In this document: piece by piece, positions 24,751-31,407 of the stretch
Numbering within the stretch: the stretch's first letter is position 1
Layout: each line of letters starts with the position of its first letter
Assembly: GCA_025054715.1 (NCBI GenBank)
Contig: JANWYH010000005.1
Span: 1 to 32,334 of the forward strand
Origin: Pyrinomonadaceae bacterium
Lineage (GTDB): Bacteria > Acidobacteriota > Blastocatellia > Pyrinomonadales > Pyrinomonadaceae
Direction of reading: 5' to 3'
DNA length: 32,334 bases
The notes under the pieces: generated by a model
What the model was told of the DNA's origin: nothing
The model's input: the letters and a program-made list of their open reading frames with translations, nothing else
The model's database searches: none
Position numbers and translations under genes: made by a program

Positions 24751-25593
24751 TCAGTTACGGCTGTTTTGAATTTGCTTAAGTTTTACCTCTAACCTACCAA
24801 TGTTAGTGTAAACCCTCGACAAAACCGGAATTCTTCTCTCGTTGTCGGCTATCCAGATTATCATTCTTCCTTCGCGTTCTATGAGCCTACCCTGACCGAA
24901 AACTTGAGGCTCAACCAGAAAGCACCAAACATTACCTAAAAGAGTTTTTCTTTTCTCTTTTCCAGTGACCTTAACCGGAATCTTGTAAACAAGCCCAGAA
25001 TCGCTAACCGTAGTTTCTATAACCTTGCCAATCTCTAAATTAGACTGCCTCAAACGATAAATTCCTGAAACTAAATCATGCGTTTCCTCTTCTATAGTAG
25101 AGGCAATTTTTCTTGGTGGTTTTAAGGGATCGTTAGGATCGGTCTCAACAAATACAACTTTCTTTTCTTTGTAATCAAAAACGGCTTCTGAATCACGGAT
25201 TCGATTACCTTGCTCATCCCGCTTTATAGTTTTCAAGATGCGGAATTTCTCGGCATCAACGCTGGATTGAAAAATTTGAAGGATTCTCTGTCCGAAAAGC
25301 CTTACGAACGTGCCCTTTGATCTACCCTCAAATCTTATGTTGTAAACCCCTTCCGACTTGCTAACCGAAAATGTCAAAGTTCCTACGTCTATACCTCTTA
25401 AAATGCCATAATTGTATTTCACCTCATAAACAAGAGTTTCGCCGTCAAATAGAAACTCAGGTTTTGGCGGATTTGACTGAGAAAAAATGAAACTGTAAAG
25501 GAGCAGTATTAAAACGAAAGCGTTTGAGATTTGCCAGAAAGTAGCCTTCGTCGAACCGCCTCGAAAACATGATCTACAGATATATTCATACAT
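24751..25593 (-). CDS. Exported DUF3108 protein
   Basis: The mature region matches DUF3108. It contains GETLVYEVKYNYGILRGIDVGTLTF, FEGRSKGTFVRLFGQRILQIFQSSVD, the ETHDLVSGIYRLRQ segment, and a late VWCFLVEPQVFGQGRLIEREGRMIIWIADNERRIPVL. These are beta-rich envelope proteins of unknown function. A signal-anchor-like stretch (AFVLILLLYSFIFSQS) precedes it. No start codon exists between that stretch and the end of the heptosyltransferase gene, so the start must lie inside the latter. ATG 25593 gives an 85-bp overlap; a TTG two codons upstream, 9 nt after AGGAG, is an alternative. It is last in the operon with the GT9 gene and the large ATPase. Confidence 0.78.
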   Translation of the reverse strand: MYEYICRSCFRGGSTKATFWQISNAFVLILLLYSFIFSQSNPPKPEFLFDGETLVYEVKYNYGILRGIDVGTLTFSVSKSEGVYNIRFEGRSKGTFVRLFGQRILQIFQSSVDAEKFRILKTIKRDEQGNRIRDSEAVFDYKEKKVVFVETDPNDPLKPPRKIASTIEEETHDLVSGIYRLRQSNLEIGKVIETTVSDSGLVYKIPVKVTGKEKRKTLLGNVWCFLVEPQVFGQGRLIEREGRMIIWIADNERRIPVLSRVYTNIGRLEVKLKQIQNSRN

Positions 25594-26534
25594 ATCCAAT
25601 TGCCACAACTCCTGCGATGACAATTTACCCGACAAGCGATGTCTCTTCTCTCTACACATATATCTTCCCGATATGGACTACCATTTCGCCACCATTCGGT
25701 CGGACCAAATATCCCGACAATTGGCGTTCCTGCAGCTACAGCAATATGCGTAGGTCCTGTGTCACCGCCAACATAAATTTTAGCTTTTTTTGCAAGCTCA
25801 TAAAATCCCTTAAGCGACAAACTAGCTAGCACCGTCTGTTTAGTCTTACTCGCTTGCAACACTCTTTGGGCTAGATCATATTCATTTCTTGCCACAGACA
25901 CCACCGATCTTATACCAAATTCCTCCCAGAGCCTGTCGGCTAGAAAACCAAAATTTTCAGCGTTCCATAATTTCGTCTTCCAGGCAGCAGCTGGATTCAA
26001 AATGGCAAAACTCTCACCCACCAATTCAATCACAGAAGTAGCCTCCCTTTTTTCCGCCTGCTCAGTGAAAATAGGAAACTGCAACCTCTCAGGGAGCAAA
26101 TCAAAACCAAACGCTTTGCTTACCAATAAAAGATTTTTCTTTATCACGTGAGTTTTTTGCGGTATCTCGACTTGCTCGCTCAGAAAGAACCTGCTTTCCG
26201 GTTCTCTTAAAACATCACTTGCAAAACCGATGCGCCTTTTTGACCCTGAAAGAAAAGCTAGAAAGGATGACTTCAAAAGCCCTTGAAAATCCAGTGCTAC
26301 GCTTGCTCCTAACCTACGCAAATTGTAAACGCTCTCTAAGAGAGCACTGATAGACCTGCTTTTTAAGAGAATTATTTTGTCAATTAAAGGATTTTTCTCT
26401 AAAATTCCATAAGCTTTCTCTTCAACCGCCCATATAATCTCTGCTCCTGGCAACTTCTCGCGGATATACGAAAGCGCGGGCAAGCAGTGAACAACGTCTC
26501 CGATACTTCCCAACTTGACTATAAGTATTCTCAC
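25509..26534 (-). CDS. Lipopolysaccharide heptosyltransferase-like GT9 glycosyltransferase
   Basis: This 341-residue GT-B enzyme of family GT9 has the N-terminal RILIVKLGSIGDVVHCLPAL, the middle AVEEKAYGILEKNPLIDKIILL, and the donor-site region YVGGDTGPTHIAVAAGTPIVGIFGPTEWWRNGSP. It ends with the cysteine-rich tail CRVNCHRRSCGNWICMNI, common in heptosyltransferases. It probably adds heptose to lipid A-core (WaaC-like), which would mean an LPS-bearing outer membrane; the exact acceptor is inference. The start is GTG, directly after the TAG of the large ATPase with no gap, so it depends on coupled translation. The DUF3108 gene overlaps its 3' end. Confidence 0.9.
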   Translation of the reverse strand: MRILIVKLGSIGDVVHCLPALSYIREKLPGAEIIWAVEEKAYGILEKNPLIDKIILLKSRSISALLESVYNLRRLGASVALDFQGLLKSSFLAFLSGSKRRIGFASDVLREPESRFFLSEQVEIPQKTHVIKKNLLLVSKAFGFDLLPERLQFPIFTEQAEKREATSVIELVGESFAILNPAAAWKTKLWNAENFGFLADRLWEEFGIRSVVSVARNEYDLAQRVLQASKTKQTVLASLSLKGFYELAKKAKIYVGGDTGPTHIAVAAGTPIVGIFGPTEWWRNGSPYREDICVERRDIACRVNCHRRSCGNWICMNISVDHVFEAVRRRLLSGKSQTLSF

Positions 26535-29500
26535 CTATATTTTCATTAAGACGGGGTCATCTGGAAGCTCCTCAAACCATTCAGAGAACCTCTCCTGAAG
26601 CTCAGCTCGACTCATAAAGCTTTCATCTTCCGGAAGCTCAATCATCAACATGGGCGAAGCCTTTATCATGCTTACGGCTTTTTTCAATACTACCATTTCT
26701 TTGGATGAAAGCAGCGGAAAATCACGTCCTGACTGAAGTATATCTACAAGTTCTTGAGCTACTTGCTTTTCCTCTTTCTTTTTTGATTCCTGGATTATCT
26801 GTTCCAACATCGAGACAAGCGTATCTCTTAGAACTCTTATGACTTTGCGATAGCTTAGACGTCCCCGTTCTACCACTTCCCTTAGCTTGTCAGGAAGCTT
26901 TTTCCATTCTTCAGCCATCGAAAGTCGAAAAGAGCAAGAACAAAGTGGATACCTTTTAAGCACCTCACGAACATCAGCTTTGCAGTTTAATTTTTTGCCA
27001 TTAAAGTAAATCATTTTTGCTCGATTGTAGTATGTTTTTGGGAAAATACTGATTTTAGAAAGGTTCTCAAACTCCCACCATTCATCGCTGCCGATTATCT
27101 CTTCGAATCTATCCTGCAGCTCAGAGTTTCTCATAACAGCATCATGCCTAACAATAAAATAATCAGCATACTTTTTCTGAAATTCATTCCATTTCTCTTC
27201 AAATTCCCTGTTTAGAGTTTCGCTCGGTGATTGCAGCGACTCGACAGTAAATTCAAGTAGTTGCTTGCGCAAAGCTTCTATTGTTTCATCCGTCGTGATC
27301 TCACAAAGAGACAGATACTTCCAGACTTGACTACGAAGGTCTGCTCCTCTTAGAAAATCCTCAAGTTTAACTAGGTCTTTCGTTCTGTCTATAAAAATTT
27401 TCTCCGAGTTAGAAAAGGCATCAGCAATTGTTTGTAAGCATTCTTCTAGAGAGATTGACTCTTCTAAAAGCTCTTCTATGGAACTTGCAACGCTTCCAAA
27501 AGTTTTTGCTACGTTAGTAGCAAGCCTCCAAACACTAGTATTAAGCGCATCTTCTGGAAGTTTTTCAAACCGCTCCAGAACGGCCTCTGACCTCCAGTCG
27601 TTTAACCAACTAGAAAGAGCTTGACGAATTTTTTCTCTATCTTTCGGATCGTCTAAAGTCCTAAACGTATCAACAGCAGTAAGCGTCCTCGCCCAATCAA
27701 CAAGCTCTACGCTCGAATATGAAACCGTTTCAGGGCGAGAAATACCAACTATATCGTCCCAAATTATCTTCAAATCCAGCGAACGATGATTTATACGATT
27801 ACCTTTAGAGGTTACAAATTCAATCCTTCTTTTTGCGACAAGAGCTGAAAGATAAAGCTGCACTGCTTCCCGCGAAAACCCAAAAGGCTTTTTCTTTAAT
27901 TCTTGGTAAATATCTTTCAAGGGAAAAACCTCATCATTATTTTCATTTATTCGAGAAAGAATTTTCTGAATAGGAGCAAGCTTTAATAGCTCTTCTTCAG
28001 AGGAAAGCACTAGATAATCACCTCGTAAAGTTACAAGACCTAATGGCTCAGCTAAATTTACAGCTAAAGTCTGCACCTCAGGCGACGAAACTTTTCTTGC
28101 TCCAAAAAGCTCATTAACTATAGAAGAAACCTCAGCTATTCCCAAAGTTCCAGTCAAAACGGGATGATCTGCATAATAAGACTCGAAGATTTGATTTAAT
28201 ATCTCAATAAAAGCATCACTTAAGTGCCGAGAGTTCTTTGCTGACGGACTAAAACTATAAACTTTTCCATCAACAATTAAACTTCCCTCTTCAAGAAAGA
28301 TTCTTTCCCAAATCTTTCCCACAGTTGTCATCAAGGCATGCCCAGCTATACTAATTTGATCTTTGAACTCTTCAGCTATTGATTCGTCAGTGACCAAAAC
28401 ATGGTAACGCAGAATAGTCTCAGCTTCTTCGGGCCTAAGAAGAGCAGGTTGCCAGAAAATTCTGGGAATCGCCAAGTTCTGGTCGAAACTTGGTTCTTTC
28501 CCAGGCTTTACTATCACAACTTCCCAATCATAAAAGTCAGACTTATGCCCGTCTGGCTTTAAGTCATTGTTCCAATTCCAAATAATTCTTCCCCTTCTGA
28601 TGGTACCTCTCCAAACTACATTGCAATCCACCGAATCAAAAACTTCGTTCTCTGTCAACAAAACCCAGTCGTTAAATCTTTCACTAGCAAAGCGACGCAA
28701 AACCTTCGGTATAACTTCCGATGAGATGCCAAGAGCTGCTTCTCTTAAGGCTTGGTTTAGACTGTCTTTACCAGCAACCTTGAAGCAATATCTAATTTGT
28801 CCACTTTTTTCCTCATAGCGATTTAGCTGTTCTGGAATCAACTGGGCAAACCTTTCAAGTATCTCTGCGACAGAAGCACTAGGATTTTCAGAACCTTCAT
28901 CAAAAACAAGCGTAGCAGCGCTTATCTCAGAAGCAGTCGCACCCTCTCCGCTTAAGGACATAAGAAGCAAAGCTTTCAAAACTAGCTTTGCTTGTAATCT
29001 TTGAAGAACTGGTATTTGGTTTATGACTTCACTGCTTACCTTATCGAAGGCATCAAAAACTTCCTTTAACTCCTCAGATTTCCTCAAACCAGCTTCAACT
29101 AGATCAAAAACCTCATCCAAGCAAATTAGAGAATTTGCGGGTCTTCCCAAAATTTTTGCTCCTGCTTCAGAGGCAAATCCCATCAAAGCGAACTCTTTTA
29201 CGTATAACCTCACAAAAGGAGCTATTTCTAAAATCAAAGGATGCAGCGGATAAAGTGATGAAAACTTCTGCTCACTCCATTGAAAGGCCGGTAAAACACT
29301 ACGAAAATACTGATAAACCTCTTTTAGAGACTGTAACTCTTGAGTGTTTTTCGGAAAAACATAGTTATTAACGATTCTATAGAGGTGGTCTTGATCAAGA
29401 TAATCTATAGAGTATGTTCTTGCTATAGCGGCATTTACTCCATCAGCTCCTGCAATGTCATCATCTAGAGCAACAGCAACAAATATGTTTAGATTTTTCC

Positions 29501-30068
29501 CGATCTCAGCAATCTCTCCGAGCAAAGGACCGTCATTTCTTGCAACTCGCTTGATCCTTTCTTGAGCCGTGTCAATTATAAATACAAAAGGTAAATCACC
29601 TGCTTTCGTAGCAGCCATTTTTAACAATTCTTCAAGTGAATCACTAAGCTTAGCCCTATCAATCTCTAGAGACTTTGCAAGTGAATCTTTTAACTCTTCA
29701 AAAAGATCCTTATTCGTTCCACGCCTCACATAAGCAACAGGATGACGACGCCTTTTTAGCTGTTGGGCACTGGAAGCAACCAACGGATCAACTATCTGTG
29801 ATCTCAGTTCAGGATTCGAAACTATCGCTCCAAGTGTTGCAAGAAAGTGGCTCTTTCCAACGCCACGATAACCAGCTAAAGCCTTTGCAGCACCGCTTTG
29901 AGGACCTACTTCGGAAATCTTATCTAACCACTTCGCCATCATTTCCGAAGTAGCTTCAGTAAAAAGATAAGCTGCAAGCGTTCTCGCTGGGTCTGAAAAA
30001 TAATCTAGCAGGCTACTATAAGGTTTTACCTCAACTAAATCCTTTACCTTTTTATCTGTTCTGTACAT
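26535..30068 (-). CDS. Large P-loop ATPase, BrxC/PglY/DUF6079-like, orphan
   Basis: This 1177-residue cytoplasmic protein starts like BREX-type P-loop proteins (VKDLVEVKPYSSLLDYFSDP). Walker A is GYRGVGKSH (66-74). The candidate Walker B is FVFIIDTAQE (161-170), where the usual acid right after the Asp is Thr and a Glu comes four residues later. Next are NIFVAVALDDDIAGADGVNA, a YPLHP segment, winged-helix-like stretches, and a tail with paired cysteines (Cys1043, Cys1045 in PLCSCSF) before a long helical region. Overall size and order resemble BrxC/PglY and DUF6079 proteins of phage-defence systems, but the likeness is distant and from memory. No PglX, PglZ or BrxA/B is adjacent. It is joined to the GT9 gene without a gap, so an envelope or housekeeping role is equally possible. 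Confidence 0.7.
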   Translation of the reverse strand: MYRTDKKVKDLVEVKPYSSLLDYFSDPARTLAAYLFTEATSEMMAKWLDKISEVGPQSGAAKALAGYRGVGKSHFLATLGAIVSNPELRSQIVDPLVASSAQQLKRRRHPVAYVRRGTNKDLFEELKDSLAKSLEIDRAKLSDSLEELLKMAATKAGDLPFVFIIDTAQERIKRVARNDGPLLGEIAEIGKNLNIFVAVALDDDIAGADGVNAAIARTYSIDYLDQDHLYRIVNNYVFPKNTQELQSLKEVYQYFRSVLPAFQWSEQKFSSLYPLHPLILEIAPFVRLYVKEFALMGFASEAGAKILGRPANSLICLDEVFDLVEAGLRKSEELKEVFDAFDKVSSEVINQIPVLQRLQAKLVLKALLLMSLSGEGATASEISAATLVFDEGSENPSASVAEILERFAQLIPEQLNRYEEKSGQIRYCFKVAGKDSLNQALREAALGISSEVIPKVLRRFASERFNDWVLLTENEVFDSVDCNVVWRGTIRRGRIIWNWNNDLKPDGHKSDFYDWEVVIVKPGKEPSFDQNLAIPRIFWQPALLRPEEAETILRYHVLVTDESIAEEFKDQISIAGHALMTTVGKIWERIFLEEGSLIVDGKVYSFSPSAKNSRHLSDAFIEILNQIFESYYADHPVLTGTLGIAEVSSIVNELFGARKVSSPEVQTLAVNLAEPLGLVTLRGDYLVLSSEEELLKLAPIQKILSRINENNDEVFPLKDIYQELKKKPFGFSREAVQLYLSALVAKRRIEFVTSKGNRINHRSLDLKIIWDDIVGISRPETVSYSSVELVDWARTLTAVDTFRTLDDPKDREKIRQALSSWLNDWRSEAVLERFEKLPEDALNTSVWRLATNVAKTFGSVASSIEELLEESISLEECLQTIADAFSNSEKIFIDRTKDLVKLEDFLRGADLRSQVWKYLSLCEITTDETIEALRKQLLEFTVESLQSPSETLNREFEEKWNEFQKKYADYFIVRHDAVMRNSELQDRFEEIIGSDEWWEFENLSKISIFPKTYYNRAKMIYFNGKKLNCKADVREVLKRYPLCSCSFRLSMAEEWKKLPDKLREVVERGRLSYRKVIRVLRDTLVSMLEQIIQESKKKEEKQVAQELVDILQSGRDFPLLSSKEMVVLKKAVSMIKASPMLMIELPEDESFMSRAELQERFSEWFEELPDDPVLMKI

Positions 30069-30276: not shown

Positions 30277-31407
30277 ATGTTGAAAAATCTAAAAAAGCTA
30301 TTGTCTTTGATTTTATTGACGTCCTTCTGGCTTAACTTCGGTGCCATCTCGATAGTAAGGGGACAGGACGTTCAATCCAATCAGGAAAAAAAGCAAGAAA
30401 AAAACGAAAAAAAGGAAAAGCAAGCTGAAAAAGGTAAGACTGCTCGTCCGCTTTCCGAAAAAGAAGATCCTTCAAAGATAGGTAAAAGAAACATAAACAA
30501 AGGAGGTGATAGTTTTTTTGGTTGGCTTGGCGGCTCTCAAGAAAAGGAAATAGCCATCGGTCGTCAATTAGCTGCGGAGATAGATCAGCAAGTCAAACTA
30601 GTAGACGACCCAATAATCACCGAGTACATAAATCGAGTAGGTCAAAATCTAGTCCTACACTCAGACGCGAAAATCCCTTTTACCATAAAGGTCATAGAAA
30701 GTGACGAAGTTAATGCCTTTGCTCTTCCGGGTGGATTTTTCTATGTAAACACCGGTCTTATCTTAGCAACTGACACAGAGGCTGAGCTTGCTAGCGTAAT
30801 GGCTCACGAGATTGCTCATGTTGCAGCACGCCATGCAATTGAAAACTTCGGTAAGAGCAGACTTCTAGGGATCGGCATAATAGCAGGCATTATCTTTGGT
30901 GGCGGAGTCACCTCAACAATCCTTCAGAATGTCGGAGGGCTAGGCGAAGGGCTAGCTTATCTACATTTTTCTAGAAGCGCTGAAGAAGAAGCTGATATGC
31001 TAGGCGTCCAATATCTTTATGCGGCAGGCTACGATCCGACCGCTATGGCTACGATGTTTGAAAAACTTGCTGCTCAAAATCGAAAAAAACCAAGCGCACT
31101 GAAAAAACTTTTCTCGACTCATCCGCCCTCATTAGAAAGGCGCGATAAAGTGTTAGCCCTAGTAGCAAGATTTCCAGAAAAGCAAGAATACATAATCAGC
31201 ACTTCAGAATACCAGCGCGTGAAAGAGCGATTGATGCGAATGACAAATGTAAAAGCTTTAGTTGCTTCTGATGGGCAGCAAGAGGACACACGCCCAACAC
31301 TAAAACGGCGTCAACCTGAACCTGATGATGCAGAAAAAAATGATTCACCACCTCAATTGAAGCGGCGTTCTCCTGAACCCTCCCCTTCTCCAACCCCCAG
31401 CAATTAA
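30277..31407 (+). CDS. Exported M48-family metalloprotease (BepA/LoiP-like)
   Basis: A long signal sequence (hydrophobic to about residue 28) is followed by a Lys/Glu-rich low-complexity stretch (about 36-60) and a linker. The M48 zinc protease core comes next: HEIAH (177-181) in SVMAHEIAHVAARHA, a glycine-rich hydrophobic segment (about 197-215), and the third ligand in SAEEEADMLG (Glu236, Asp240). STHPPSLERRDKV is a typical M48 end motif. Such enzymes act in outer-membrane protein and lipoprotein quality control. The C-terminus ends in Pro/Ser-rich repeats with two LKRRxPEP units. A bidirectional terminator begins at the stop codon. The substrate is inferred from the family only. Confidence 0.9.
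   Translation: MLKNLKKLLSLILLTSFWLNFGAISIVRGQDVQSNQEKKQEKNEKKEKQAEKGKTARPLSEKEDPSKIGKRNINKGGDSFFGWLGGSQEKEIAIGRQLAAEIDQQVKLVDDPIITEYINRVGQNLVLHSDAKIPFTIKVIESDEVNAFALPGGFFYVNTGLILATDTEAELASVMAHEIAHVAARHAIENFGKSRLLGIGIIAGIIFGGGVTSTILQNVGGLGEGLAYLHFSRSAEEEADMLGVQYLYAAGYDPTAMATMFEKLAAQNRKKPSALKKLFSTHPPSLERRDKVLALVARFPEKQEYIISTSEYQRVKERLMRMTNVKALVASDGQQEDTRPTLKRRQPEPDDAEKNDSPPQLKRRSPEPSPSPTPSN

Follow-up and report, generated by a model that had tools for sequence, protein, structure and literature searches.

BrxC is among the least understood components of BREX and is regarded as part of a defence system; a BrxC-like ATPase encoded apart from any BREX partner raises the question of what such a protein does in the cell. 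A gene of this kind lies in the window analysed here, that is, the whole stretch of 32,334 nucleotides taken from a Pyrinomonadaceae bacterium (assembly GCA_025054715.1, contig JANWYH010000005.1). Its open reading frame starts with ATG, reads from 30068 to 26535 on the minus strand and ends in a TAG that, as read from the window sequence, directly abuts the GTG start codon of a GT9 gene; this GTG opens the heptosyltransferase motif VRILIVKLGSIGD. The frame itself, its intact Walker A, its altered Walker B and the abutting TAG and GTG had been pointed out in a first-pass annotation, and all of them were confirmed. The gene and those adjoining it are:

26535..30068, minus strand: stand-alone AAA+ protein of the BrxC/DUF6079 family, 1177 aa (ORF, Pfam, AlphaFold model)
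25509..26534, minus strand: GT9 heptosyltransferase-like gene with a GTG start (PF01075, 116.5 bits)
24751..25659, minus strand: DUF3108 envelope gene, next after GT9 (PF11306, 118.1 bits)
30277..31407, plus strand: divergent M48 metalloprotease, BepA-like, upstream of the ATPase (PF01435, 112.6 bits)

The ORF is far beyond chance, as relatives that are full-length and free of internal stops are found across almost the entire family, with dN/dS values of 0.12-0.27 between close pairs.

The kinship with BrxC, PglY and DUF6079 that had been proposed for this protein is borne out by Pfam, PADLOC, structure matching and profile comparison. It matches Pfam DUF6079 (PF19557) in two stretches with 67.9 bits, above the gathering cut-off of 23, and is thus a member of that family; its best defence matches are the BrxC-PglY models of PADLOC (53.6 bits), and with the NCBIfam BrxC equivalog NF033441 it reaches 43.2 bits over residues 688-906, far below the cut-off of 400 bits set for that model. 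Alignment of the ATPase profile with DUF6079 proteins by hhalign extends over the full length (99.8%, E 2e-29, 1106 columns). In the AlphaFold (AF2) model, with a mean pLDDT of 85.5 (28 homologues), the AAA+ domain, the lid and the first winged helix superpose with the solved BrxC of the type I BREX of Acinetobacter (9zll, 9zdx, 9zn5; PMC13326643), with VIA Z 20.6 for 9zll and 20.1 for 9zdx over about 390 residues (391 residues and rmsd 5.3 at Z 20.6). Both proteins also share the Walker A lysine, a length of about 1200 aa and, by profile comparison, the order of their domains. The next structural family is that of the ORC/Cdc6 initiators (2qby_B, Z 13.4), which have the same AAA+ plus winged-helix layout but a clearly lower Z than BrxC, and lack the alpha+beta domain and the helical arms. 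A PDB sequence search with the single protein gave chance matches only, and it was the profile search that brought up BrxC; the viral fold library returned only generic AAA+ matches. The C-terminal half, modelled separately (pLDDT 87.6), gave no Foldseek match at E <= 0.001, and the fold search found for it winged helices and helical bundles only, with no whole-domain match. Taken at its full length, the protein is a member of the BrxC/PglY/DUF6079 ATPase superfamily, composed of an ORC/Cdc6-type AAA+ domain, winged helices flanking an alpha+beta domain, and long helical arms:

28659..28934, minus strand: first winged-helix region after the AAA+ lid, about residues 379-470 (model secondary structure)
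27726..28001, minus strand: second winged helix, residues 690-781 (fold matches; weak Pfam BrxC_wHTH match at 706-755)
26928..26984, minus strand: C-x13-C-x-C-x-F motif in the helical arms, with C1029, C1043, C1045 and F1047 (conservation)

The part of solved BrxC that holds its wHTH1 (residues 1-551) aligns to residues 6-432 of the ATPase model, and positions 260-351 of the C-terminal model match the winged helices of SelB, Zur/Fur, TFIIIC and MukF (Z 6-7.5, 58-78 residues). A second wHTH has been described for BrxC as well (PMC12839542), in a half of that protein that no solved structure covers. The three cysteines of the arms occur in 41 and H975 in 43 of 45 family sequences, and a related cysteine motif lies near the C terminus of DUF6079 proteins. 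Shorter members of the family, of about 920-1050 aa, were found at loci L024-L030 and L083 (genomes G002, G011, G013 and G035), in which no counterpart of residues 446-787, the stretch with the alpha+beta domain and the second winged helix, is present or can be recognised.

The ATP site combines an intact Walker A with several replaced positions, whose conservation was counted over 45 distinct family sequences:

29850..29873, minus strand: Walker A GYRGVGKS, residues 66-73 (invariance in homologues)
29568..29588, minus strand: altered Walker B FVFIIDT, residues 161-167, with Thr at the position of the catalytic Glu (conservation, alignment)
29454..29471, minus strand: sensor-1 position with the Asp triplet ALDDDI, residues 200-205 (conservation)

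In Walker A, G66, G69, G71 and K72 are invariant in 28 homologues and found in 43-44 of the 45 sequences, K72 (the counterpart of K78 in Acinetobacter BrxC) in 44. At Walker B, where the predicted strand 161-166 of the model ends, I164-I165-D166-T167 replaces hhhDE. Both D166 and T167 are kept in 44/45 sequences, and profile alignment sets T167 against the mutated Walker B residue E269 of Acinetobacter BrxC (Q270 of chain 9zll_A), so that the altered Walker B first noticed in a single protein is a real clade-wide substitution at the place of the BrxC catalytic glutamate. Next to the Walker B Asp, on its C-terminal side, related families mostly have G, D, E or N, so that the threonine marks the Pyrinomonadaceae branch. 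Where predicted strand 195-200 ends, D202, D203 and D204 occur in 44-45 of the 45 sequences, and ALDDDI stands where BrxC has TSQADI; R177 is kept together with D179 (44-45/45), and the VxRDDG motif is also near-invariant in this set. The arginine-finger region (K326 and R330 in BrxC), on the other hand, is not conserved, with R217 in 21/45 sequences, and the placement in the ATPase of sensor 2 (R430 in BrxC) is uncertain. The disappearance of both the Walker B glutamate and the BREX partners could be taken to mean that the gene is decaying, left over from a BREX operon since lost, but this reading is refuted by conservation: frames are open family-wide, dN/dS keeps to the range given above and the replaced residues are near-invariant (44/45). 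The nucleotide site is remodelled rather than eroded.

Nor is the window ATPase a BREX component. BREX would require PglZ and PglX to be encoded along with BrxC, and this combination is absent from its genome: PglX and BrxB gave no match there, and PglZ gave only a partial sub-threshold match away from the locus (20.7 bits against a cut-off of 25). No BREX partner, among them BrxA, BrxB, PglX, PglZ and BrxL, was found near the ATPase when looked for, and its description as an orphan in the first-pass annotation holds for the whole genome. A control is provided by another genome of the same family (G007), which has a complete type I BREX operon (BrxA-B-C, PglX, PglZ and BrxL). Its own BrxC reads IIDEVG and scores 738 bits, whereas a separate orthologue of the window gene, located elsewhere in that genome, reads IDTAFG and scores 41 bits; across the ATPase group, scores with the PADLOC BrxC model are 41-54 bits. 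These are different genes with different histories, and the ATPase has either left BREX or never belonged to it. The operon of G007 (L199, L203) includes an extra HNH/DUF262-like gene and a 281-aa gene between BrxC and PglX. The ATPase also differs from DUF6079 proteins of BREX-related loci (L091-L095), which have Walker B VVDELLD in place of IIDT and whose genes adjoin a large DNA-methyltransferase-like gene and other shared genes, while the window ATPase stands alone. In other families of Acidobacteriota, such VVDELLD proteins beside a large DNA-methyltransferase-like protein form a type of locus related to BREX (L091-L096), with an AlbA/Schlafen-like gene in four of the loci. A survey of BREX diversity published in 2026 uses neither 'orphan' nor the stem 'acidobacteri' in its main text (PMC12839542).

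The relatives of the ATPase that bear species names come from Pyrinomonadaceae (f1), a family of soil bacteria, and other Acidobacteriota. The gene is present in 32 of the 37 sampled Pyrinomonadaceae genomes, nearly always as one copy (in G006 as a fragment only). A survey of the class, within Acidobacteriota and with approximate start codons, found it in 87 genomes of f1, in families f3, f5 and f8 and, as a near-full-length match, in one genome of f6, with the proviso that the A1 profile includes the distant members L097 and L103, whose families therefore match by construction. The ATPase tree follows that of AspRS (Mantel r 0.93 over 24 genomes, with 0/2000 permutations as high). The five sampled genomes that lack the ATPase group as one branch (SH-aLRT 93) nested among its carriers, and a single loss is enough to explain them. 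Resting on one marker, AspRS, and on a quick tree search, these results are good but not final evidence. In genomes of the three genera to which the five belong, the facing M48 and DUF2520 genes are 166-556 bp apart, with no remnant of the ATPase between them, and these loci often also keep the gene beyond, which by its sequence encodes a malic enzyme. Within the protein, purifying selection is strongest on the AAA+ part (dN/dS 0.09-0.19 in close pairs), and the alpha+beta part is the fastest in most pairs (0.15-0.37); the whole ATPase evolves about 2.3 times faster than AspRS. In Pyrinomonadaceae and related families of Acidobacteriota, the ATPase gene is thus near-core, chromosomal and single-copy, and it is inherited vertically.

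These data bear on the idea of a single-gene phage-defence protein, that is, a BrxC-like sensor or effector able to block phage DNA with none of the other BREX proteins, whose stable inheritance would be incidental. The kinship of the ATPase with BrxC and SspC models would suit it, as would the fast alpha+beta part, also reported for BREX BrxC (PMC12839542), and the loss in one clade without visible replacement. However, a fixed locus, a single copy and an AspRS-congruent tree across the whole family speak against it, no relatives were matched on plasmids, phages or viral contigs, and Pfam reveals no effector domain, which makes the defence reading unlikely. Of the two alternatives first offered for this gene, a relative of defence ATPases or a family tied to the envelope, the relationship stands, and the gene itself is recast as a vertically inherited near-core one.

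The other alternative, a link of the ATPase to the making of the envelope or of LPS, derives from the neighbours. Besides the abutting GT9 start and the DUF3108 gene that follows, the same order occurs in the sister genome (L070), and a divergent M48 peptidase lies upstream of the ATPase in 28 of the 29 assessable f1 loci. Moreover, in a two-contig genome of another family, f3 (L087:7222-12491), the ATPase is flanked by an LpxA-like acyltransferase gene (lpxA) and by lptE, whose start it overlaps, which makes a second, independent LPS neighbourhood. Nevertheless, the linkage to GT9-DUF3108 is confined to the window's genus (the window and L070), and in the rest of the family that pair is never a neighbour: DUF2520 comes next after the ATPase in 26 of 29 assessable f1 loci, an order that also holds in f5 and f8. 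The M48 neighbour holds in f3, but it is divergent, stays after loss of the ATPase and is not adjacent in f5 or f8. A tie to LPS genes is therefore not upheld beyond the genus, linkage to PglX or PglZ, named in the first-pass annotation as the sign of a defence role, was not seen among the homologues surveyed either, and an envelope function is quite improbable.

Three proposals were rejected: the envelope operon as the conserved context, and DUF2520 and M48 as obligate partners. The envelope operon was ruled out by the 29 family loci. DUF2520, on whose function the literature gave nothing, is absent from all three f3 genomes checked, although the ATPase is present in them, and it lies elsewhere in the window's own genome (on another contig), in the sister genome and in G017. 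M48 is not adjacent in the f5 and f8 loci and is retained where the ATPase was lost. As no neighbour is obligatory, the ATPase probably acts alone or together with partners encoded elsewhere.

What this protein does is best approached through BrxC, which has been described as an ATP-dependent AAA+ dimer whose E269Q mutant traps or stabilises the ATP-bound state, and whose wHTH1 and alpha+beta domain bind DNA (PMC13326643). We infer ATP binding, DNA binding and dimerisation of the ATPase by analogy, on top of the observed fold, conservation and inheritance, and propose, with a probability of roughly 0.6, that it is a stand-alone, vertically inherited, ATP-gated DNA-binding scaffold of the BrxC family. 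Like BrxC, it would act as a dimer or scaffold, in which binding of ATP by the intact Walker A would favour pairing of the AAA+ domains, DNA would be gripped by the winged-helix/alpha+beta/winged-helix middle, and subunits would be joined by the helical arms and their Cys3/His motif. Since the Walker B glutamate is always a threonine, hydrolysis would probably be slow or rerouted through another acid, perhaps a sensor-1 Asp, and the protein should then be a long-lived ATP-bound switch. A stable ATP-bound state is likewise predicted from the natural Glu-to-Thr change with Walker A kept and, together with the published behaviour of BrxC, favours a DNA-bound housekeeping scaffold. A chromosome-associated or regulatory role would suit the ATPase better than BREX restriction, and it probably does some cellular job rather than BREX defence. 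On the other hand, the unconserved arginine finger may speak against AAA+ dimers like those of BrxC and would allow another mode of assembly, and fast evolution, in most pairs fastest in the alpha+beta part, could also suit a defence protein. Counting against this reading, too, are the negative Foldseek result for the C-terminal half and the Z of its winged-helix matches, 7.5 at most. In any case, this vertically inherited near-core relative of BrxC, which has no BREX partner and whose non-canonical ATP site is fixed, provides a simplified one-protein system for the question of how the BrxC fold on its own deals with DNA, and automatic defence finders may label a housekeeping gene as BrxC.

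More tentatively, the protein could represent a housekeeping branch of the BrxC superfamily in Acidobacteriota, in which the ATP site (the Thr, the Asp triplet and VxRDDG) would have been rebuilt as a unit, with catalysis relocated to another strand or ceased, and which would serve chromosome maintenance or gene control. If so, the central ATPase of BREX would have a cellular counterpart, in one family even fused to CheY-type receivers. In f8 paralogues of the ATPase (L085:9346-13062, L152:8040-12242 and L165:7476-11243), a CheY-type receiver replaces part of the helical arms, recognised as Pfam Response_reg in L085 and L152 and as a similar stretch in L165. To our knowledge, BrxC-like proteins wired into two-component signalling have not been described. 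A 2053-aa ATPase of the same group (L151:8098-14259) carries a very long Ser/Thr/Asn-rich tail, and a shorter paralogue of about 1010-1040 aa occurs in f3 and f5 (L088:8005-11040; L101, L102, L154 and L155), followed in L088 by P-II and ammonium transporter genes.
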